Part shown: positions 2,568 through 17,378 of the stretch, piece by piece | Layout of the letters: every line of letters begins with the position of its first letter | Numbering within the stretch: the stretch's first letter is position 1 | Source of the DNA: Caldimicrobium sp. | Lineage (GTDB): Bacteria; Desulfobacterota; Thermodesulfobacteria; Thermodesulfobacteriales; Thermodesulfobacteriaceae | Length of the DNA: 64,000 nt | Reading direction: 5' to 3' | Assembly (NCBI GenBank): GCA_025060015.1 | Contig: JANXDB010000054.1 | Location: 1-64,000, forward strand | Made by a program: the position numbers and the translations under genes | The notes under the pieces: generated by a model | What the model was told of the DNA's origin: nothing | The model's input: only the letters and a program-made list of their open reading frames with translations | The model's database searches: none

Positions 2568-3353
2568 TCACTCCCCTAAGCCACTAAAGTCCTCTATAGT
2601 AAGCTCTTCACAGGCCTCTTTTACTCTCTCTATGGCAGAGTAAAAGTCCTCACCTATGGTTCTAACCCTCAATCCATAGGCCTTTTGGAATGCCTTTCTT
2701 ACTATTTCACCTTTTAAAAGGGCGTTGTCCCAGCCGAATTCGGCATATTTCTCGTTGACAACCCGGTTTAAATCTACTAATGCCTGCGCTCTCTTTCTTC
2801 TCTCTTCTACAGCCTCATTTAAAGGTAGATCCAAAAAGTTGTCAAGCTTTGATAAAAAACTCTCATAAAAACTTGCTGGAAAACGATTATCAAACTCCTC
2901 AATGGCAAAACCGAAAGTTATCAACATAGGCTCTTTAAAGTAGGTAAAAAGGTCCTCTTCCCTGATACTCCTATTCTCTTTGTAAAAATCCATAAACAAC
3001 CTATAGGCCTGTTTAGACTTTTCTTTGACATTGGGTGGTTTTTCTGTATTAAACTCAAGGATGTAGTGATAAAGACTCTCATCAACCACTATGGCCAATA
3101 TTTCTCTTGCCCCAAGATCACGCATAGCCTCCAAACGATGTCTTCCGTCAACTACGTAGTATTTCCCATCCTTGGGCACAACCACTATAGGAGTAATAAA
3201 TCCTAACTTTTCAATGGCCATCTCCAGGTGCTTTTTCAAACTCTCAGAAATTTCTCTCTGAAAGGGTGGAGTGGAAATATCTTCCAAACTGAAAAGTGCC
3301 AACTTCAGTGGTTGCCTCTTTACAGGATCTTCAAAAGTGGCTATCAACCTCAT
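2568..3353 (-). CDS. ParB/Srx N-terminal domain protein
   Basis: ITPIVVVPKDGKYYVVDGRHRLEAMRDLGAREI: ParB-like nuclease motif. Confidence 0.7.
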   Translation of the reverse strand: MRLIATFEDPVKRQPLKLALFSLEDISTPPFQREISESLKKHLEMAIEKLGFITPIVVVPKDGKYYVVDGRHRLEAMRDLGAREILAIVVDESLYHYILEFNTEKPPNVKEKSKQAYRLFMDFYKENRSIREEDLFTYFKEPMLITFGFAIEEFDNRFPASFYESFLSKLDNFLDLPLNEAVEERRKRAQALVDLNRVVNEKYAEFGWDNALLKGEIVRKAFQKAYGLRVRTIGEDFYSAIERVKEACEELTIEDFSGLGE

Positions 3354-3368
3354 AAACTTTCAGATAGT

Positions 3369-4487
3369 CTAATCTGCACTTTTCCTTAAAATAGTGGGTA
3401 TTTCCAGGACGTCTTCATTCATAAACTCACGCCAATCAATTTTCTTCATCTCTTCTTTTCTTCTGGCAACTTTGTCCATGGAGATCACCTTATCGGAAGT
3501 CTTTGTTTTCTCTCTTTCTAAACCAGTAGCAATAATGGTTATTCTTAAGGTATCTCCAAGAGTTTCATCAAAAACTACGCCCCAGTAAACCCTGGCTTCA
3601 GGGTGTAATTCCTTAGAGATTGTTCCTGCGATTAGCTGAGTCTCTTGAATAGTTAGGGTCTCCGGATGAACGCTTATATTTAAAAGTAAGCCTTTAGCTC
3701 CACTAACAGAAAGATCTTCTAACAAAGGACTTGAAATTGCCATTTGAGTTGCCAGTTGAGCTCTCTCTTCTCCGGCTGCCTCTCCCATACCCATTAGAGC
3801 TATACCACCACTTTCTGTCATAACCGCTTTAACATCTGCAAAATCTAAATTTATGTAACCTGGTGATAAGATAAGATCTGAAATACCTCTTACAGCATAA
3901 TATAATACATCATCAGCCTTTTTGAACATTTCATAAAGTCTCTCCTGAGGTGCTCCCAAAAGGATCAATTTATCGTTGGGAATGGTAATTAGTGTATCCA
4001 CATACTTTTTAAGCTCTTCAATACCCTCTTCTGCTTGCTTGATCCTTACCTTGCCTTCAAATGTAAAAGGTTTGGTTACTACTGCTACGGTTAGGATCCC
4101 CATCTCCTTACAGAGACTAGCAATAACAGGAGTTGCTCCAGTGCCTGTGCCTCCTCCCATACCTGCTGCTAAAAAGACCATGTCGGCATCCTTTAGACAG
4201 TCTCTTATGTCCCTCTCAGATTCTTCAGCAGCCTTTCTGCCGATTTCTGGTTTCCCTCCGGCACCTAAACCCTTAGTTAAATTTTTACCAAGCTGAATCT
4301 TTATCGGTGCTGGATTAAGGGAAAGAACCTTATAATCGGTGTTTGCTGAGATGAATTCTACTCCTGCAAGGGACCTCCTTATCATATGGGCGATTGCATT
4401 TCCTCCTGCTCCGCCAACACCGATGACCTTAATGTTTGGTTGATACTTTATCTCTTCCTGCTCTATAAGATCGAAGGGAATTGTCAT
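3369..4487 (-). CDS. ftsZ: Cell division protein FtsZ
   Basis: GGAGGNAIAHMI, MGGGTGTGATPVIA, C-terminal peptide EIPTILRK. Confidence 0.98.
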   Translation of the reverse strand: MTIPFDLIEQEEIKYQPNIKVIGVGGAGGNAIAHMIRRSLAGVEFISANTDYKVLSLNPAPIKIQLGKNLTKGLGAGGKPEIGRKAAEESERDIRDCLKDADMVFLAAGMGGGTGTGATPVIASLCKEMGILTVAVVTKPFTFEGKVRIKQAEEGIEELKKYVDTLITIPNDKLILLGAPQERLYEMFKKADDVLYYAVRGISDLILSPGYINLDFADVKAVMTESGGIALMGMGEAAGEERAQLATQMAISSPLLEDLSVSGAKGLLLNISVHPETLTIQETQLIAGTISKELHPEARVYWGVVFDETLGDTLRITIIATGLEREKTKTSDKVISMDKVARRKEEMKKIDWREFMNEDVLEIPTILRKSAD

Positions 4488-4499
4488 AGGTCCTCCTCC

Positions 4500-5705
4500 T
4501 TAGATTTTTAATAATTTTTTTAGTTTACCCAGTAGACCCTCTTTTTTCTGAGGTCTCTCCATTCCCTGGGGCAAATTTTGGTAAGCGTAGAGTAGCATTC
4601 CAACCGCCGTGGCGTATTGAGGGTGATAAATCTCCTCTGTTAGCCCTGGCAATCTCTCAGGATATCCGATCCTTGCAGGCAGATCTAGAATCTGATCACA
4701 GAGATAGATCAAACCAGGGAGAAGAGCAGAGCCCCCGGTTAGTACCACTCCACTGGTAAGATAGGTCTTGGGAAAGGCCTTTATCTCAGACTCTATGAGA
4801 ATTAGAAGCTCCCTCACTCTCTCTTCTAATATCTCAGCTAAAAGCTTCTTGCTAATACTGCGGGCAGGTCTATTGCCTATCCCCGGAACTTCGATGGTTT
4901 CATCTTCATCTACAAGTTCTCTTAGACAGATACCCCTCTCTATCTTTAACTTCTCAGCTTCGCCTTTGGTGGTTCTCAAACAAACGGCTAGATCCCCAGT
5001 CAACAGTTCTCCTCCTACTGGAACAGAGCCAGCAAATTTTAGAACACCTTCCTTGTAAATAACAAAATCACTCGTTCCACCACCAAAATCAATCAATAGT
5101 ACTCCTAAATCCTTCTCCTCAGAGGTCAAAACAGCCTCAGCTGAGGCTAGTCCCTGAAAAACCACTCCGTCAACCTCTAAACCAAGATTTTCAAAACACC
5201 TCAAAAGATTCTGAACATGAGACCGCTGAGCAGTGATAAGCTGAACATGGGCCTCTAATCTTACACCAGTCATTCCTATAGGTTGAGTAATACCTCTTGT
5301 TTGATCCACAACAAATTCCTGAGGAATTACATGGAGAAGAATCCGATCTTGTGATATGTCTACAGCCTGAGCTGATGCTAACACCTCCTCCACATCTTTA
5401 GAAGTAACTTCCTTTTCCTTTAGAGCCACAACACCCATGCCAGGCTGTATTTTGACATGGCTTCCTGCAACACTAGTTAGAACGAAAGTCAAATCCACCT
5501 TGGCTTGTCCCTGAGCCTTTTCGATGGCACTTTTTATGCTCTGTGTTGCCTCTTCTATGTTTACCACGCTACCCCTTTTCAGTCCCAAAGCCGGAGAAAC
5601 CCCCATGCCTGTAACCCATAGTTTTCCATCCCGCTCCTCACCAATTAAAGCACATATCTTCGTAGTCCCTACATCGACTACTAATAGCCCTCCGTCCCTC
5701 ATCAT
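4500..5705 (-). CDS. ftsA: Cell division protein FtsA
   Basis: VDVGTTKICALI, DFGGGTSDFVIY, C-terminal amphipathic GLLGKLKKLLKI. Confidence 0.97.
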   Translation of the reverse strand: MMRDGGLLVVDVGTTKICALIGEERDGKLWVTGMGVSPALGLKRGSVVNIEEATQSIKSAIEKAQGQAKVDLTFVLTSVAGSHVKIQPGMGVVALKEKEVTSKDVEEVLASAQAVDISQDRILLHVIPQEFVVDQTRGITQPIGMTGVRLEAHVQLITAQRSHVQNLLRCFENLGLEVDGVVFQGLASAEAVLTSEEKDLGVLLIDFGGGTSDFVIYKEGVLKFAGSVPVGGELLTGDLAVCLRTTKGEAEKLKIERGICLRELVDEDETIEVPGIGNRPARSISKKLLAEILEERVRELLILIESEIKAFPKTYLTSGVVLTGGSALLPGLIYLCDQILDLPARIGYPERLPGLTEEIYHPQYATAVGMLLYAYQNLPQGMERPQKKEGLLGKLKKLLKI

Positions 5706-5709
5706 AGGC

Positions 5710-6435
5710 TTAACTCCTGAATTTAATTAAAGCTTGCCCGAAGGGATAATCAACCCTTATGGTATCTACCTTATCGATTAATTTTGTCTCGTATAAATAA
5801 ACCATTATCCTATCAAGATGCTGGTATAGTTGAATAAGATCGTCAGTAACACCCAGAGGGAGATAGATCTTCACATAATTTTTAGTTTGAAAAATCATCT
5901 TATCCTTCTCTAAAACAATTTTAGAGTAATTTTCGTAAACAGGAAGATACTTTTTGTTTTTCTTTAGCCATTCCAAAAAAGCAAAGAAATTATCCCTCCA
6001 GGATTCATCTCTGATCTCTATTAGAGGGTAATAGAAATAGTCTTGCGGAAGGATTCCACCTATTATTACTCCCTTTCTATCAACAAGATAACCCTTGTTT
6101 TCCTTTACTAGAATAGCGAGGCCCTCCCTCTCTTTAATGGATATCTCTAGCAAAGATGGAAGCCTCCTAGCAATAACTACTTCCTCTATGTTAGGATTGC
6201 TTTTAAGCTTTCTCTCTATTCTTCTAAGATCAATGTGAAAAAGTCTTTCACCACCCTTTAACTCCGTAAGTTTAATAACCTCCTCACGGGATATCCTCCT
6301 GTGGTTTAAGACTTTTATTTCTTTTAAAACAAAGAGATCAGTAAAATACAAAAGAAAAATAACAAAAGCTATAAAGAAATTAACTAATAAACCGCTCACA
6401 ATAAATACCTTGTATCTAATCCAAAGGGTTTTCAT
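5710..6435 (-). CDS. ftsQ: Cell division protein FtsQ (POTRA)
   Basis: Single TM followed by POTRA-like FVLKEIKVLNHRRISREEVIKL; position between murB and ftsA. Confidence 0.85.
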   Translation of the reverse strand: MKTLWIRYKVFIVSGLLVNFFIAFVIFLLYFTDLFVLKEIKVLNHRRISREEVIKLTELKGGERLFHIDLRRIERKLKSNPNIEEVVIARRLPSLLEISIKEREGLAILVKENKGYLVDRKGVIIGGILPQDYFYYPLIEIRDESWRDNFFAFLEWLKKNKKYLPVYENYSKIVLEKDKMIFQTKNYVKIYLPLGVTDDLIQLYQHLDRIMVYLYETKLIDKVDTIRVDYPFGQALIKFRS

Positions 6436-8734: not shown

Positions 8735-9814
8735 TCAGGAAAAAATTCTTTTGGTCTCTTCTATTATGAAAACTTCTGGCTTTGATGGACTTAGTTTTGC
8801 TAGATTTTCCCTCAGAGCATCAAGCCTCTGTGGTTCATTGAGGAGGCTTGTAATGGTTTTTATAAATTCCTCTTCTTTTATTTCTTCCTGTCTGAACATC
8901 AAGGCGGATGAGTTTTTAACGAGAACTTCCGCATTCCTCTCCTGATGTTGATGCGTGGCATGGGGAAAAGGAATGAGTATAGCCGGTTTTCTTAAGGCAA
9001 TAAGCTCTGCCAAGGTAGAAGCCCCGGCTCTGGAAATAACTAAATCAGCTTGCGCATAAGCCCATCCCATATCCTCAATAAAAGGATATACCCTTAGACG
9101 TCCTCTCTCCATCTCCCCAGGTAGAATCTTTTCATACCCAAGCCTAACCCTTTCAAAATCATCCAGTCCTGTCTGATGATATAAAAAAAGATCACTAATC
9201 TCTTTAAAGAGATGTGGAGCCATTTTTAACAAAAGATCGTTAATAGAAGCTGCTCCCAGACTTCCGCCTAAAACCAAAAGCCCCTTTCCGGGATGTATTC
9301 TATCCTTTGGCTTAAGAACTTCCCTTCTCACAGGTGTTCCAGAGATCATTACCTTTTTCTTTGGGAAGTAATTAATGCTTTCAGCAAAGCTCACAAAGAT
9401 TTTATCTACGAATCTACTTAGTAGTACATTAGCCCTTCCTGGAATAGCATTCTGTTCCTGCAAAACCGCCCTTATGCCAAGAGCTTTTCCTGCCAGTACC
9501 ACGGGAACTGAAACATAACCTCCTTCTGCCAAAATTACCGCTGGTTTAATCCTGTTAATCAACTTGAGGGATTTAAAAAAGGCTAACATTAGCTTACCCA
9601 TAGCCCGTAGTTTGGCTCCTAAGGATCTACCTATGAATCCCTCCACATCTAGCTCGAAGGTTGAAAAGGGTTTATCCTTAAGGATGAGTCTTTCTATCTT
9701 TCTCTTACCTGAGACGAAAAACACCTCTTCACCTCTACTTAATAGCTCCTCTGCTATAGCAATGCCAGGGAAAAGATGTCCACCAGTGCCTCCAGCCACT
9801 ATAAGCCACCTCAA
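8735..9814 (-). CDS. murG: UDP-GlcNAc:lipid I GlcNAc transferase MurG
   Basis: VAGGTGGHLFPGIAIAEEL, VISRAGASTLAELIALRKPAILIPFPHATHQHQERNA. Confidence 0.98.
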   Translation of the reverse strand: MRWLIVAGGTGGHLFPGIAIAEELLSRGEEVFFVSGKRKIERLILKDKPFSTFELDVEGFIGRSLGAKLRAMGKLMLAFFKSLKLINRIKPAVILAEGGYVSVPVVLAGKALGIRAVLQEQNAIPGRANVLLSRFVDKIFVSFAESINYFPKKKVMISGTPVRREVLKPKDRIHPGKGLLVLGGSLGAASINDLLLKMAPHLFKEISDLFLYHQTGLDDFERVRLGYEKILPGEMERGRLRVYPFIEDMGWAYAQADLVISRAGASTLAELIALRKPAILIPFPHATHQHQERNAEVLVKNSSALMFRQEEIKEEEFIKTITSLLNEPQRLDALRENLAKLSPSKPEVFIIEETKRIFS

Positions 9815-11205
9815 TGGAAAATCTCCCTTTCAGAGGTCTCTCCATAAAATTTAGGAGCGTATTTCAAAACCAGTTCTCTGAATACCTCACCTCTTTCCTG
9901 ATAATCTCTGAATTGATCATAACTTGAGCAGGCTGGAGAGAGCAAAACCACGTCCCCTGGCACAGAGACCTTTAACGCTATAGTCAAAGCCTGTGGAAGA
10001 TCCTCCACCACATAGGTTTCCACTAACTCTCCTAAATCTTCAAGGATGGTATATCTTGCTTCACCCATTAAGATAAGGGTTTTCACCTTTTCTTTAATAA
10101 GGTGACGCAGGGGAGAATAGGTAGATCCCTTGTGTCTTCCACCAAGGATCAAAATTATAGGTGGAGACAAACCCCTCAAAGCTTGCAAAGTGGCATCCAC
10201 GTTGGTAGCCTTTGAGTCATTCACAAAAGTTACCCCTCCGAAGGTTCCCACAGGTTCAAGTCTATGAGGAAAGCCGACAAATTCCTCGATCAACCTCTCA
10301 CAGGCTCTTCTATCAGCTCCCATAAGACGGCAGGCAAGTAGAGCACAGAGGAGATTTACTCTGTTATGCAATCCAAGAAGTCTAAAGGACCTAAGAGAGT
10401 AAACCTCCTCATCCTGCAAAAGCAAAATCGCCTTGTCTCCCTCTATAAAGGCCGATGAACCCTTTTCCCGTTTTTCCGAAAAAAAGAATGGCCTACCCTT
10501 AACAAGACTTTTAAAGGTCTCAAAATAGGGCTCCTTTAAGGGCAGTAGAGCAAAGTCCTTCTCACCCTGTTTTTCAAAGAGCCTATACTTGTAGTAAGCG
10601 TATTCATTCATACTGCTATATCTGTCTAAGTGATCGGGAGTTATATTAAGAAGAAGTCCTATTTTTGGAGAGAACTCTTCCACAGTTTCCAATTGAAAAC
10701 TTGAAACCTCTAACACCAACTTATCTACCTTAATGCCAGAGAGGATGTACTCTGATAGCGGAATCCCGTAATTGCCACCTGTAAAGACTTTAAAGCCCGC
10801 TAATTTTAGAAGTTCGGAAACCATGGCGGTAGTGGTTGTTTTCCCGTTAGTTCCAGTTATAGCAACTATGTTTTCCCTTTCATTCTCTCTTAGCAAGCGA
10901 AAGGCGAGTTCCAACTCGCCCCACAGAGGAATACCTTCTTTGAGAGCAGGTAAAAGGACATCTTTAGGCACACCAGGACTCGTCACTATTAAATCGGCTT
11001 TTTTCAAGGTGTCTGGCCTATGCCCACCTGTCTCAAAGACTACTCCCTGGACTTCCATAGAAGACAGGTAAGAGGGAGGTAGGTCTTCCCTGCCCTTACT
11101 CTCTGACACGATGACCTCTGCACCTTTGACGAGTAAAAGTCTAGTTGCTGCCTGGCCACTCTTACCAAAACCTATGACCACTACTCTTTTACCTCTGAGG
11201 TCCAT
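9811..11205 (-). CDS. murD: UDP-N-acetylmuramoylalanine--D-glutamate ligase
   Basis: MDLRGKRVVVIGFGKSGQAATRLL, VAITGTNGKTTTTAMV; start trimmed from the tracked ORF (11298), which runs into mraY. Confidence 0.97.
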   Translation of the reverse strand: MDLRGKRVVVIGFGKSGQAATRLLLVKGAEVIVSESKGREDLPPSYLSSMEVQGVVFETGGHRPDTLKKADLIVTSPGVPKDVLLPALKEGIPLWGELELAFRLLRENERENIVAITGTNGKTTTTAMVSELLKLAGFKVFTGGNYGIPLSEYILSGIKVDKLVLEVSSFQLETVEEFSPKIGLLLNITPDHLDRYSSMNEYAYYKYRLFEKQGEKDFALLPLKEPYFETFKSLVKGRPFFFSEKREKGSSAFIEGDKAILLLQDEEVYSLRSFRLLGLHNRVNLLCALLACRLMGADRRACERLIEEFVGFPHRLEPVGTFGGVTFVNDSKATNVDATLQALRGLSPPIILILGGRHKGSTYSPLRHLIKEKVKTLILMGEARYTILEDLGELVETYVVEDLPQALTIALKVSVPGDVVLLSPACSSYDQFRDYQERGEVFRELVLKYAPKFYGETSEREIFH

Positions 11206-11210
11206 AACCT

Positions 11211-12290
11211 TTAACGTATCTTCAGGGTGCTTAAGGCCAAAAGCCCACATATTATGGAAATAATCCAGAATCGAACTACAACCTTGTTTTCCTTCCAACC
11301 TTTAAGCTCAAAGTGATGATGAAGGGGAGCCATCCTGAAGATCCTCTTACCTCCCGTTAGTTTAAAATAGCCCACCTGAAGCATAACCGAAAAAGCTTCC
11401 ATCACAAAAACTGCTCCTGCTATGACCAGTAAAAACTCCTGCTTTATCATCACTGCAATTGCCCCCATTATCCCACCCAAGGAAAGAGACCCCACATCAC
11501 CCATGAAGACCTCAGCAGGGTGAGAATTGTACCATAAAAAACCAAGTCCTGCCCCTCCAAGGATGGCACACACTATAGTCAATTCACCTGCATAAGGCAC
11601 ATAGGGAATATATAAATACTGGGCAAACTTTATATGACCCGTCACATAGGACAAAACAGTGTAAACCCCTGCTACTACACAAAAAGGCACTATGGCAAGT
11701 CCATCGAGACCATCGGTGAGATTGACCCCATTAGAGCTTCCAATTAAAACGATCCCAGCAAAAAAGAGATAAAAGATCCCTAAGTCAAGAACTATCCTCT
11801 TAAAAAATGGAAGATTCAAGGTGGTACTAAAATTTAGAATATGAAAAAGAATGAGATAAAAGATAAGAACAGCCAAAAACTGCAGTATCAACTTTTCTCT
11901 GGCTTTAAGACCGAGATTTTTACCTCTCTTGAGCTTGAGATAGTCATCTAAGAACCCTATAAAGCCAAAGGCAAGGAAGGTAAAAAGAGCTAACCACACA
12001 AAGGGATTGAAAAGATTGCACCAGAGCAGGGTTGAGACTGTCACCCCAAAGATGATCACCACTCCGCCCATGGTAGGTGTTCCAGTTTTAGCATGATGAT
12101 GAGCTGGACCCTCCTCCCTAATAATCTGACCAAACTGTCTACTTCTCATGAACCTGATAAAATAAGGCATGGTGAAATAAACCAAAAGGAAAGCCGTAAT
12201 AGATCCATAAATCATACGAAAGGTGATGTATTTGAAAACGTTGAAAAGGGTTATCCATTCACTCAACGGATAAAATAGATGATAAAACAT
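11211..12290 (-). CDS. mraY: Phospho-N-acetylmuramoyl-pentapeptide transferase
   Basis: GTPTMGGVVI, NGVNLTDGLDGLA, FMGDVGSLSLGG, MAPLHHHFELKGW. Confidence 0.98.
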   Translation of the reverse strand: MFYHLFYPLSEWITLFNVFKYITFRMIYGSITAFLLVYFTMPYFIRFMRSRQFGQIIREEGPAHHHAKTGTPTMGGVVIIFGVTVSTLLWCNLFNPFVWLALFTFLAFGFIGFLDDYLKLKRGKNLGLKAREKLILQFLAVLIFYLILFHILNFSTTLNLPFFKRIVLDLGIFYLFFAGIVLIGSSNGVNLTDGLDGLAIVPFCVVAGVYTVLSYVTGHIKFAQYLYIPYVPYAGELTIVCAILGGAGLGFLWYNSHPAEVFMGDVGSLSLGGIMGAIAVMIKQEFLLVIAGAVFVMEAFSVMLQVGYFKLTGGKRIFRMAPLHHHFELKGWKENKVVVRFWIISIICGLLALSTLKIR

Positions 12291-12291
12291 C

Positions 12292-13686
12292 CTAGGCCAT
12301 TCCTTTTAAAAGCTTTTCTACAATCCTTTCCATCCTGAGGGATCGAGATCCCTTTATATACACTAAGGCCTTTTTTGTGGGAATTGTGGCCTTTTCTAAA
12401 AAATCCTCAACCCTTTTATATATGTTAAAGGATTTGCCGGAAGATTTATAGCCCTCTGCATAATGTTCAGCCATATCTCCTATAAATATAGCCCTATCCA
12501 CAACGAAACCTGCTAACTCTCCTATTTCCCTGTGATACCTTGGTGCTTCTTCGCCAAGTTCCTTCATATCACCCAAGATCAGGATCTTTTCTCCTGAAGC
12601 CATATCCACATCAGACAGCCAGTTGAGAGCCGCAGTAACAGAGCCAGGATTGGCATTGTAGGTATCATCAACGAGAATGATATCTCCAAGCTGATAGATC
12701 TTACTTCGAACTAATAGGGGACTTACTGAGGAGAGGGTTTCAAGGAGGGTTTCCATGGCCAAACCCGTAGCCACGCCTATAGCTAAGGCCCCTAAGAGAT
12801 TCAGTATATTGTGTTTGCCAGAGAGTGGAACTTGCCATTCATAGTGCTTTCCCTCGTACTCAAGCAAGACCTTTGAACCCTCAGGCAGTGAATTAATACC
12901 AAGCAACCTCAGATCTGCCCCGAGATCCTCTCCGTAGGAGATCTTTCTCTGAGGAAACCTCTGGGCACGATTTCTTAAAAGAGGCTGATCATAAAAGTAA
13001 ATTATGGTCCCCGATGGATCCGTCCTCTCAAATAGTGATACCTTCTCCTCCAGAACTCCCTCTAAGGTGCCTAGTCCCTCCAGATGAGCTGGATAGATAC
13101 AGGTAATAAGAGAAATTTCTGGTTGCACAATTTCAGCAAGCCTTCCGATCTCTCCTTTCTCACTGGTCCCAACCTCTAAAATAGCCCACTCTGGTTTATC
13201 GGTGAAGCTAAGTAAACTTAGGGGCACACCTATTAGGTTATTGTAATTTGCCTCGTTTTTTCTTACTCTGTAAAAATTGGAAAGAAGGGTGTAGGTTAAC
13301 TCTTTGGTTGTGGTTTTTCCGCAGGAACCAGTAATGGCAATAACTCTGAAACTCTCTCTTACACGAAAGAACTGAGCCAAATCACCAAGGGCTCTTATGG
13401 TATCCTTGACGAGTATGACTGATAATTCCTGGGGTAGTTCCTCGAGTTTAAGATCCTCAGGTATACGATGAAAGACCAGGCCACCTGCTCCTTTTTCTAT
13501 GGCCTCTTTCCAAAAGGTGTGACCATCAAAGTTTCTTCCCTTTAAGGCAAAGAACAGAAATTCTGGCTCTAAAAGTCTAGTATCCGTGCAAATTCCTTTA
13601 AAGGTGACTCCCATGTCTCCGTTAATCAGGATTCCTGAAGTAGCCTTTACTATATCCTCAGTGCTGAAGGGACTTATGACAAGCAT
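12292..13686 (-). CDS. murF: UDP-MurNAc-tripeptide--D-Ala-D-Ala ligase
   Basis: AITGSCGKTTTKEL, DDTYNANPGSVTAAL. Confidence 0.96.
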   Translation of the reverse strand: MLVISPFSTEDIVKATSGILINGDMGVTFKGICTDTRLLEPEFLFFALKGRNFDGHTFWKEAIEKGAGGLVFHRIPEDLKLEELPQELSVILVKDTIRALGDLAQFFRVRESFRVIAITGSCGKTTTKELTYTLLSNFYRVRKNEANYNNLIGVPLSLLSFTDKPEWAILEVGTSEKGEIGRLAEIVQPEISLITCIYPAHLEGLGTLEGVLEEKVSLFERTDPSGTIIYFYDQPLLRNRAQRFPQRKISYGEDLGADLRLLGINSLPEGSKVLLEYEGKHYEWQVPLSGKHNILNLLGALAIGVATGLAMETLLETLSSVSPLLVRSKIYQLGDIILVDDTYNANPGSVTAALNWLSDVDMASGEKILILGDMKELGEEAPRYHREIGELAGFVVDRAIFIGDMAEHYAEGYKSSGKSFNIYKRVEDFLEKATIPTKKALVYIKGSRSLRMERIVEKLLKGMA

Positions 13687-15162
13687 CTACGTTACTCCTG
13701 AAGATCTCAGTATTTTTCTTATCTCCTCTTGATCGGAAAAGGGATATCTTATCCCTTCGATCTCCTGATATCTTTCGTGTCCCTTCCCTGCAACAAGCAG
13801 TATATCTCCGTCCCGTAACATTTCTATAGCAAAGGCCAGGGCTTCTCTCCTATCCGGAAGGCAAAAGCAGGGTTTACTTCCGTTCATACCACCCTTGATC
13901 TCATCAATGATCTTAACTGGATCTTCAAAGCGTGGGTTATCCGATGTAAGGATGACTACATCGCTAAGCCTTTGAGCAACCTCACCCATAAGAGGTCTCT
14001 TTCCTGGATCTCTGTTGCCACCACAGCCAAAAAGCACTATCAATCTTTCTCCCTTCAAAGGCAAAAGACCCCTTATAGCATTTTCCAGGGCTTCAGGAGT
14101 GTGAGCATAATCAACGAAAATCAAGGCCTCTCCCTTTTTGCCACAGAGCTCAAGTCTACCAGGAGGATTGGACAGATGACGTAGTGCCTCCAAAACCTCC
14201 TCCAATTTCAATTCTAAAGCCAGCGCACATCCTAATAGTGTGGCAACATTTTTGGCCTGGTAGTCTCCAAAGAGTTTGGTCTCAACCTGATAAATCTTAT
14301 CATAGACCCTTATGTGCAATTTCAAACCAGGAGTTCTATCGATGATTTTTGCATCGATACCCCCGTTGTTTACCACTAAGAGGTCTCTCTTAGGCACAAA
14401 TCCATCCTTTAACAGCTCTCCTGCAAGCCTTCGACCGTAATCACTCTCATAGGATATAACCGCCCTTCCCCTGTCTCCAAGATAGTGGGTAAAGAGTTTC
14501 TTCTTTGAAAGATAGTAACTTTCCATATCTCCATGATAGTCCAGGTGATCCCTTGATAGGTTAGTGAAGGCAGAGACCTTGAATTTGAGACCAAAGATTC
14601 TATCCTGGTCTAGTGCATGGGAGGACACTTCCATGACTATAAATGCAAGGGAGAGCTCTCTTGCCCTTTTCAAGAGGGGGGCAAGACTAAAAATTGAGGG
14701 TGTTGTCTCCAGAGCCTCCGCTACGGAGCCAACTTCATAAAATAAAGTTCCAATGTAACCTGTGGGATAGCCCAGGAAATTCAATAACTCTTTTAAAAAA
14801 AAACTCACTGAGGATTTACCATTGGTCCCAGTAATACCTAACAGATTAAGATCTCTCTCGGGATTATCCAAAAACTTTAGAAGGATCCTACTTCCACACC
14901 TAAGTGGATCCTTAACCTGGACTTGAGCGACTTTGTAGATATCTTCGGGGGAAGTCTCCCGCAAAATGGCAACAGCTCCCCTTTCTATGGCAAGGGGGAT
15001 AAAGGCTTCTCCATGTTGTTTAGTTCCCCTTCTTGCCACAAAAAGATAGCCAGGCCTAACCTCCTGAGCTTTGTCGGTTACACCGGTGATCAAGAGATCA
15101 TCTTTGAGGTTTAAGGTAGATAAAAGGTGCTCCCCCTCCAAAATGGTTGTAAGTTTTTTCAT
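13687..15162 (-). CDS. murE: UDP-MurNAc-L-Ala-D-Glu ligase MurE
   Basis: GITGTNGKSSVSFFL, VDYAHTPEALENAI, GCGGNRDPGKRPLMGEVA, TSDNPR. Confidence 0.97.
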   Translation of the reverse strand: MKKLTTILEGEHLLSTLNLKDDLLITGVTDKAQEVRPGYLFVARRGTKQHGEAFIPLAIERGAVAILRETSPEDIYKVAQVQVKDPLRCGSRILLKFLDNPERDLNLLGITGTNGKSSVSFFLKELLNFLGYPTGYIGTLFYEVGSVAEALETTPSIFSLAPLLKRARELSLAFIVMEVSSHALDQDRIFGLKFKVSAFTNLSRDHLDYHGDMESYYLSKKKLFTHYLGDRGRAVISYESDYGRRLAGELLKDGFVPKRDLLVVNNGGIDAKIIDRTPGLKLHIRVYDKIYQVETKLFGDYQAKNVATLLGCALALELKLEEVLEALRHLSNPPGRLELCGKKGEALIFVDYAHTPEALENAIRGLLPLKGERLIVLFGCGGNRDPGKRPLMGEVAQRLSDVVILTSDNPRFEDPVKIIDEIKGGMNGSKPCFCLPDRREALAFAIEMLRDGDILLVAGKGHERYQEIEGIRYPFSDQEEIRKILRSSGVT

Positions 15163-16169
15163 GGTTTTATCATAAGGTTTACAAGATGATCATGTTCTTT
15201 CTTAAGCCTTTGCCAGAAAGGCTCCTCATCCTTCTCTTCTGATGGCAGATACCCTGATAACACCAAGAGGTAATCATCTTTAGTAATGAAAGAGAGCCAC
15301 CTTTTATTATGAGATAAATATAAGTAGAGATTCTCTCTCTCCAAGGTCAGTCTATCACATAGTTTTTCTTTGAGAGGCGTTAAAGTAGGATTAATAATCT
15401 TACCACAATCCTCCTCTAAAAAGGATTGAACTATGTGTAAGGGAGTTAAGCGAAGAAAGTTTCCCTCCTTTTTATACTCAGCCTTACCTAACTCCCACAA
15501 TGTCTCCTTAGGTACCTTATTGAGGATATTTTCACGGATCACTAAAGGCTCCATAAGAAAAACCTTTTCATCTATGCTATAAAAGGCTAACAGCTCTCCG
15601 GTTTCTCTTTTGAAAATAGCAACATCAGTGGGAAAGTTTGGTCCCCACTTTCGGGCATAATTATAAATCCTTTTGCAGAGATTTAAATCAAGGGAGGTAC
15701 TCTTGCTATCTATTCCTTTTAATTCCTTATTAAAAGCCTTCTCTAAACCCGAGAGACCCTCGCCTCCCAAGGTAGAGCCAATTAGAGCCCGCATTTCAGG
15801 ATAAAGAACCTTCCGTCTAATCTCACCTTTTATAATCACATTCTTTACATTCTGAAGTTTATAAACTTCATCCTGTGTTAACCCTTCAGAAATAAGTAAA
15901 AGCCCTTTCTTGGGTAATTCTAACGTCTCCTGTATATAAGGCTTCACCTCATCGGGTACATCTTTTCCAAAAAGAGATTTACCTTTCATTAATAGATAGG
16001 CCTGAAAATTTTCCTTGTTTATAACCAATGGTTCTCCATAACGATCTAAGAGATATCCTCTTTTTGTTTCCTTAAAGTAGGAACTGCTTCCCTTAGAAAT
16101 GTTAAAAATCAGAGTGAAGAAAACAAGAAAAATGGCAAATAAAAGACAGATGTTAGACATATATCTCAT
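15159..16169 (-). CDS. FtsI/PBP2b-like protein lacking the transpeptidase core (apparent pseudoenzyme)
   Basis: ftsI position; RGYLLDRYGEPLV, RKVLYPEMRALIGSTLGGEGLSGLEKAFNKELKG, TSLDLNLCKRIYNYA, FKRETGELLAFYS, then directly LRLTPLHIVQSF; no transpeptidase SxxK or KTG motif in the expected context. Confidence 0.75.
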   Translation of the reverse strand: MRYMSNICLLFAIFLVFFTLIFNISKGSSSYFKETKRGYLLDRYGEPLVINKENFQAYLLMKGKSLFGKDVPDEVKPYIQETLELPKKGLLLISEGLTQDEVYKLQNVKNVIIKGEIRRKVLYPEMRALIGSTLGGEGLSGLEKAFNKELKGIDSKSTSLDLNLCKRIYNYARKWGPNFPTDVAIFKRETGELLAFYSIDEKVFLMEPLVIRENILNKVPKETLWELGKAEYKKEGNFLRLTPLHIVQSFLEEDCGKIINPTLTPLKEKLCDRLTLERENLYLYLSHNKRWLSFITKDDYLLVLSGYLPSEEKDEEPFWQRLKKEHDHLVNLMIKP

Positions 16170-16511: not shown

Positions 16512-17378
16512 TTAAGACCTCCTCTCGGCAACTCTTAATTTTGCACTTCTTGCTCGAGGATTTTCCCTTATTTCCTCTAAGGAGGGTCTCACAGGCTTTT
16601 TTGTAAGGACTAATAATCTCTCGTCCTCTTTGAAAGTCCTTTTTACCATCCTGTCCTCCAGAGAGTGAAAGGATATCACTGCCAATCTCCCACCAGACCT
16701 TAAAACCTCTGGTATCTCCCTTAAGGCCCTTTCCAGATTCTCTAACTCATGATTGACTTCTATTCTGATTGCCTGAAAAACCAGTGCTAATAGATCTTTT
16801 TCCTTTTTCTTTGAGGGATGATAGAAATCTCTTACCACAGATACAAGATCAAAGGTCTTAGCTAAAGGTTTTTTCTTTCTAACAGAGCATATATATTTTG
16901 CAAAACTGCTAGCCCTTGGCACCTCTCCTCTTTTCAAAATCTCACCTAGTTCCTTTTCAGATGACCTGTTTAACAAATCCTCAGCAGTTAACTTTAACTC
17001 CAAGCTCATCCTCATATCCAGGGGCTCATCTTTCTGAAAGCTAAATCCCCTTCCAGATCTCTCAATTAAAAAAGAAGAAAGGCCAAGATCGAGCAACACT
17101 CCATCGGCCAATAGTCTCTCCCTTTGCAAGACCTCTTTTATGTAAACAAAGCTTATTGGAAATACCTGCAGATTGTCCCCATACTCCTTTAATCTTTCAG
17201 AAACAACCTCCAAAGAGTCTTCATTCCATTCAAAGGCATATACCTTAGCACCTCTCTTGAGAAACGCCTCGGTGTGTCCCCCCATACCCAGGGTTCCATC
17301 TACGATCAAGCTTCCCCTCTCAACCCTTAACCACTCCAATACCTCAAGTAGCAGAACAGGCTTATGAAGAACCAGATC
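16512..17378 (-). CDS. rsmH: 16S rRNA m4C1402 methyltransferase RsmH (5' end uncertain, non-canonical start)
   Basis: VDGTLGMGGHTEAFL, VISFHSLEDRMVKRTF; the in-frame upstream codons LVLHKPVLLLEV match the conserved RsmH N-terminus, but the first canonical-type start in the track is TTG at 17339. Confidence 0.9.
   Translation of the reverse strand, partial: DLVLHKPVLLLEVLEWLRVERGSLIVDGTLGMGGHTEAFLKRGAKVYAFEWNEDSLEVVSERLKEYGDNLQVFPISFVYIKEVLQRERLLADGVLLDLGLSSFLIERSGRGFSFQKDEPLDMRMSLELKLTAEDLLNRSSEKELGEILKRGEVPRASSFAKYICSVRKKKPLAKTFDLVSVVRDFYHPSKKKEKDLLALVFQAIRIEVNHELENLERALREIPEVLRSGGRLAVISFHSLEDRMVKRTFKEDERLLVLTKKPVRPSLEEIRENPRARSAKLRVAERRS

Follow-up and report, generated by a model that had tools for sequence, protein, structure and literature searches.

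FtsW-FtsI is generally regarded as a septal synthase common to all bacteria. The locus described here raises the question of what an FtsI is kept for once its transpeptidase core has gone, and of which enzymes then build the division wall. It lies in a window of 64,000 nucleotides from Caldimicrobium sp. (contig JANXDB010000054.1, positions 1 to 64,000), in which the ftsI slot is filled by a 336-aa protein, P0001 (Table 1). The original prediction, made from the letters of the window, was a catalytically dead, purely structural FtsI in an otherwise complete dcw operon. P0001 occupies the ftsL-ftsI-murE order of the dcw cluster as canonical FtsI does, and its edges are intact, as had been claimed, with 4 nt in common with murE (which ends at 15162) and 4 nt with ftsL (which starts at 16166). 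FtsZ, FtsA, FtsQ and FtsL are all encoded in the window, and a DivIC/FtsB-like protein is encoded at G000:C11:29572-29751. The description of the operon as otherwise complete was wrong: ftsW is absent from between murD and murG, and from the genome. The window has no room for it, because the end of murD (9811) overlaps the start of murG (9814).

Table 1. The dcw cluster of the window and the parts of P0001.
Feature	Position in window	Strand	Evidence or remark
FtsI-derived pseudo-transpeptidase, 336 aa (P0001)	15159..16169	-	ATG start; Pfam, orthologues, AlphaFold2, Foldseek, profile alignment
N-terminal TM helix of P0001, residues 2-25	16095..16166	-	AlphaFold2 helix and hydrophobic sequence
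Pedestal of P0001 (PBP_dimer-like), residues 35-178	15636..16067	-	Most invariant columns here; Pfam, alignment, profile
Eroded transpeptidase remnant of P0001, residues 182-250	15420..15626	-	TGE strand and LTPL helix; without SxxK, SxN, KTG
C-terminal part of P0001, residues 251-336	15162..15419	-	Poorly conserved; near-invariant Cys 255 and 271
ftsL-like, 121 aa	16166..16531	-	Position and size; relatives match at same place
murE	13687..15162	-	Matches in relatives
murF	12292..13686	-	Matches in relatives
mraY	11211..12290	-	Matches in relatives
murD	9811..11298	-	End overlaps murG
murG	8735..9814	-	Directly after murD; ftsW slot empty; outgroups have ftsW here
ftsQ	5710..6435	-	Matches in relatives
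ftsA	4500..5705	-	Matches in relatives
ftsZ	3369..4487	-	Matches in relatives
mraW (rsmH)	16512..17339	-	

The FtsI motifs on which the prediction was built are present in P0001: RGYLLDRYG at residue 37, GGEGLSGLEK at 135, FKRETGELLAFYS at 186 and LRLTPLHIVQSF at 239. About 40 residues separate the TGE strand from the LTPL helix, and no KTG-like triplet (K[TS]G) occurs in P0001. Strings of the type S..K lie at residues 30, 286 and 310; since 1.9 are expected in shuffled sequences, these three can be put down to chance. They had rightly been called incidental, although the list of two that was given missed SEEK at 310. The Pfam profile PBP_dimer (PF03717) matches P0001 at 27 bits over residues 35-62 (cut-off 24.4) and 17 of the 20 members of the short-orthologue set, while the Pfam search gave no match of the Transpeptidase profile (PF00905) in P0001 or its short orthologues, so that the core is indeed missing. 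Profile-profile alignment of the P0001 group to the normal FtsI of the phylum extends as far as the TGE strand and does not reach the SxxK helix (hhalign of the window group against nine normal phylum FtsI, E = 1.3e-9). The PASTA domain of longer relatives is also absent from P0001. An AlphaFold2 model built with 13 homologues (pLDDT 83.7) shows a helix at the N terminus (residues 2-25), the strands of the pedestal and only a small part of the transpeptidase sheet, which ends in the LTPL helix (243-255). Among PDB entries, Foldseek matches this model best to PBP3 of E. coli and of Pseudomonas (E = 1e-10); the predicted fold is FtsI/PBP3-like and lacks the catalytic core. The TM-score of the model against FtsI, about 0.5 by query and global, was counted against a scaffold role. 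Judged by its sequence, the stub is incapable of catalysis by the PBP mechanism.

The same state is found throughout the order. In the window's GTDB-type family (f1), a match was obtained in 22 of 30 genomes, that is, in its own and 21 relatives. These orthologues are as short as P0001: the complete ORFs are mostly of 320-339 aa, with one shorter (291 aa) and one cut by a contig end, and they lie between mraW/ftsL and murE wherever enough of the locus is present to tell. The short form occurs in three genera, Caldimicrobium, Thermodesulfobacterium and one further genus (g1/g3/g6), and was also seen in Caldimicrobium MAGs, Thermodesulfobacterium hveragerdense DSM 12571 and T. thermophilum DSM 1276; these named relatives were found by alignment search, a single-sequence search of the named genomes having given none. 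The eight family genomes without a sequence match belong to genera g2, g4 and g5, and a same-slot ORF of 370-392 aa, from which the active site is absent, was readable in seven of them. Two other families of the order (f2 and f3; 11 genomes) have an ORF of 449-522 aa in the seven clusters read; in 10 of the 11 genomes the dcw locus retains a truncated piece of PF00905. Only PF00905 profile positions 2-41 and 123-209 remain in G030, and the SxxK/SxN and KTG stretches are therefore the ones that were lost. Altogether, the catalytic triad is in place in none of the 36 genomes read at the ftsI slot (order total 41), and the concern that orthologues might have a normal active site here is removed for all three families. 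Outgroup clusters, of which nine were read, carry an FtsI of 589-692 aa with SxxK, SxN and KTG in the slot, and ftsW between murD and murG.

The sizes and predicted domains of FtsI across the living genera form an ordered erosion series. The f2 protein (G030) has 522 aa, with the pedestal, a truncated transpeptidase and PASTA; those of f3 (449-474 aa) have the same parts with less of the pedestal. Within f1, the proteins of g2/g4/g5 (370-392 aa) consist of a transpeptidase remnant and PASTA with a pedestal that has no Pfam match, and those of g1/g3/g6, the window group, have about 320-340 aa, with the pedestal kept and PASTA gone. Profiles compared with nine normal phylum FtsI gave E = 3.4e-44 for f2/f3 and E = 3e-9 for g2/g4/g5. 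The transpeptidase remnant and PASTA of g2/g4/g5 are better kept than the pedestal, which was counted against a scaffold role, and the retained FtsI surface may therefore differ between genera.

Short FtsI is under purifying selection, as indicated by a dN/dS of 0.08-0.22 (Nei-Gojobori; close Thermodesulfobacterium or Caldimicrobium pairs). The alignment of 20 sequences from three genera contains 19 invariant residues, which cluster in residues 35-160, outside the transpeptidase remnant. After residue 26, 26 of the 31 best-conserved columns of this alignment fall between 35 and 198, where they carry the RGxxxDR strand, the GxxGxE motif, S159 and the TGE turn; in residues 199-240 no column is conserved at 90%. 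Because the conserved columns sit there, selection acts mainly on the pedestal and not on the old catalytic domain. Two further points were counted against a scaffold role, namely the weak conservation of the TM segment and linker and the fast evolution of the gene (44% identity between G000 and G005, compared with 84% for ftsZ). Cys 255 and Cys 271 are kept in 19 of the 20 short orthologues amid the variable C-terminal part, and the g2/g4/g5 proteins have two similarly placed invariant cysteines; a disulfide in the transpeptidase remnant is possible.

Exactly one SEDS gene is present in each of the 41 genomes of the order, the two SEDS pieces at contig ends in G015 being one gene, and it adjoins PBP2 where neighbours were read. 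In a maximum-likelihood tree, from which L112 (a PBP2 fragment with a long branch) was left out, all sampled SEDS proteins of the order fall on the RodA side, split from the dcw FtsW with support 100/100. Because ftsW is missing from the operon and the genome and the sole SEDS protein is RodA, it is the whole FtsW-FtsI synthase that has been dismantled and not one active site. Relocation of ftsW elsewhere was considered and rejected, as the single SEDS is RodA by both its neighbours and the tree. A search of the window's own genome (99%-complete) for another full-length FtsI found none: PF00905 is represented there only by PBP2, with STYK, SCD and KTG intact, and by PBP1A, with SAFK, SRN and KTG and the GT51 motif GGSTITQQ intact. 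RodA keeps a TD motif (NTDLAFA), which we take to match the catalytic aspartate of SEDS enzymes, and the RodA-PBP2 pair sits beside MreC/MreD. MreB is encoded by every one of the 41 genomes and MreC by 39 of them (30/30 good genomes). Since FtsI is inactive and FtsW is gone, the division wall must come from enzymes used elsewhere mainly for growth.

Two minor observations concern these protein families. The RodA proteins of f1 and f3 are unusually divergent, with long branches and about 210-270 bits to the SEDS profile (loci L003-L032 and L104-L114); the G030 protein, at 366 bits, is ordinary. In about ten relatives PF00905 also gives a third, weak hit (positions 2-128) outside the dcw cluster, within a frame of 360-390 aa (for example G008:C1:373203-373541 and G011:C4:10770-11108) that is probably a carboxypeptidase-like PBP.

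From these comparisons, we consider it probable that P0001 descends by vertical inheritance from an FtsI, that the transpeptidase core of this protein and FtsW disappeared together in an ancestor of the order or earlier, and that the remainder has been kept as a non-catalytic part of the divisome. A catalytically dead FtsI is fixed in the slot, as predicted, being common to the relatives read, under purifying selection and accompanied by no other full-length FtsI; its role would then be purely structural. An assembly or binning error that removed the catalytic core might be suspected in a draft genome of 67 contigs, but its probability is now negligible, as complete, single-contig genomes (G005, G008, G009, G014, G024, G030 and G036) and the Thermodesulfobacterium DSM strains show the same structure. 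The stub could also be a decaying pseudogene, which would accord with the stepwise shrinkage of ftsI (522, 449-474, 370-392 and 320-340 aa) and with its faster evolution than that of other dcw genes. We regard this as very improbable, since the frames are open in all genomes read, without internal stops, the start and stop overlaps with the neighbours are kept and 19 residues are invariant; the low dN/dS itself rejects such a reading.

If FtsI became a non-catalytic divisome scaffold after the loss of FtsW, the TM helix and pedestal of the stub would continue to bind FtsQ-FtsL(-FtsB) as well as a septal synthase, and the stub would pass the divisome signal on to one of the two synthases that are left. 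According to the structure of the Pseudomonas divisome, the pedestal is one of the principal surfaces by which FtsI binds FtsL (PMC7614612); in a model of the E. coli divisome, the anchor of FtsI touches FtsW and relays to it the activation by FtsQLB (PMC10390529). A stub of TM helix and pedestal could keep the contact with FtsL and present a contact to RodA-PBP2 or PBP1A; the septal polymerase and cross-linker would be RodA-PBP2, which seems slightly more likely, PBP1A, or both. That RodA-PBP2 serves elongation and division, with the stub as an adapter under FtsQL(B) control, has in our estimate not quite an even chance: it is the only SEDS-bPBP pair and its PBP2 has complete catalytic motifs, elongation evidently still runs because MreB and MreC are retained, and the long-branch RodA of f1 and f3 is compatible with new constraints, but the FtsI anchor is known to contact loops of FtsW, and G030 has an ordinary RodA despite the same losses. 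It is also conceivable, though we would sooner doubt it than assert it, that PBP1A is the septal synthase, like PBP1 of C. difficile, and the FtsI stub a regulator or recruiter. PBP1A is intact and present in the window's own genome, and in C. difficile an aPBP replaces FtsWI as the core septal synthase (PMC10693644) and the class B enzyme PBP3 forms a complex with the aPBP PBP1 and stimulates septation by a non-catalytic route (PMC12539705). FtsQ, FtsL and FtsB are, however, dispensable for vegetative growth of C. difficile, which has no FtsA (PMC10693644), whereas FtsA, FtsQ and FtsL are conserved here. We put forward only tentatively the fuller picture of a natural, FtsZ-dependent divisome in which the single RodA-PBP2 pair builds both side wall and septum and the dead FtsI acts as FtsQL(B) adapter, an old state reached by ordered erosion, which other lineages without FtsW in the phylum may share.

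Among known proteins, the stub resembles FtsI/PBP3 in its position between ftsL and murE, its TM segment, RGxxxDR strand, GxxGLE pedestal motif and TGE strand, and its HMM and fold matches. It differs in lacking the SxxK-SxN and KTG blocks, in its length (336 aa versus 589-692) and in having no FtsW partner in the genome. Common descent with FtsI, loss of the active site and a sequence under selection mark it as a pseudoenzyme. In B. subtilis, the septal class B PBP PBP2B is essential for structural reasons even in a catalytically inactive form, and another PBP then supplies the activity (PMC5656894). However, PBP2B S309A is a full-length laboratory point mutant whose activity is covered by PBP3; the stub is natural and fixed, its core is physically lost and it has no PBP3 counterpart. 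As in C. difficile, there is no functional FtsW/FtsI for division, one elongation SEDS-bPBP pair and an intact aPBP are present, and a class B PBP would have a non-catalytic role. In C. difficile the dcw enzymes remain intact and are specific to sporulation, and there is no FtsA, whereas the present case involves no spore genes, retains FtsA, FtsQ and FtsL, and has a dead class B PBP in the dcw cluster. The loss of ftsW from the dcw cluster of Thermodesulfobacteria has been stated in one clause (PMC8871954), and ftsW is absent in Desulfobulbaceae, including cable bacteria (PMC7873302); in both groups RodA, PBP2 and Mre are kept. The portions of these two papers available to us record gene loss only and mention no inactive FtsI. 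Literature covered here, most subscription journals being outside its scope, yielded no report of an FtsI without an active site in these or other bacteria. What is new is an FtsW-FtsI synthase that has been taken apart in nature while its inactive FtsI is retained under selection.

Similar losses were seen beyond the order in an even sample of the phylum, with SEDS type assigned by best match and single genomes read within the limits of draft completeness. The 27 single-SEDS genomes outside the order comprise 20 of RodA type (19 with a PBP2 neighbour) and 7 of FtsW type with mur neighbours (loci L159-L179); as 20 of 27 are RodA-only, FtsW loss looks common across the phylum. Among these 20, G126 is the one whose dcw cluster was read; this complete genome, from a different family, has RodA only and no ftsW between murD and murG. 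Its FtsI is dead and 535 aa long, with a PBP_dimer match and only transpeptidase positions 124-191, so the order is not alone in having lost FtsW together with the active site of FtsI. One ancient loss of FtsW is possible, because the ten genomes that have FtsW all fall to the same side of a branch supported at 100 in a dcw tree. The RodA tree, which has one bad row (L167), needs three changes and is still compatible with one loss.

The order, a group of thermophilic sulfur bacteria, is cultured, walled and MreB-containing, and keeps FtsZ, FtsA, FtsQ, FtsL and the FtsI stub with no dedicated septal polymerase or transpeptidase. It thus represents a natural separation-of-function experiment, which shows the parts of FtsI worth keeping once catalysis is gone, and makes it testable whether a canonical divisome can drive RodA-PBP2 or an aPBP; isolates of several Thermodesulfobacterium species exist as DSM strains. 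For genome annotation, the presence of FtsI does not equal the presence of a septal transpeptidase.

Two further features of the window may be recorded. Directly downstream of ftsZ lie a putative ParB/Srx-like ORF (2568-3353) and a MEMO-like ORF (1380-2564), both named by sequence reading; this pair also follows ftsZ in Thermodesulfobacterium and the other short-FtsI genera (L099-L103), and was not seen after ftsZ in the longer-FtsI clusters. A CRISPR-like array occupies positions 358-890 of the window, with about eight copies of a unit of about 32 nt, GCAATCCCCTTTGAAGCGGGGCGGGTTGCAAC, mostly 72-76 nt apart.
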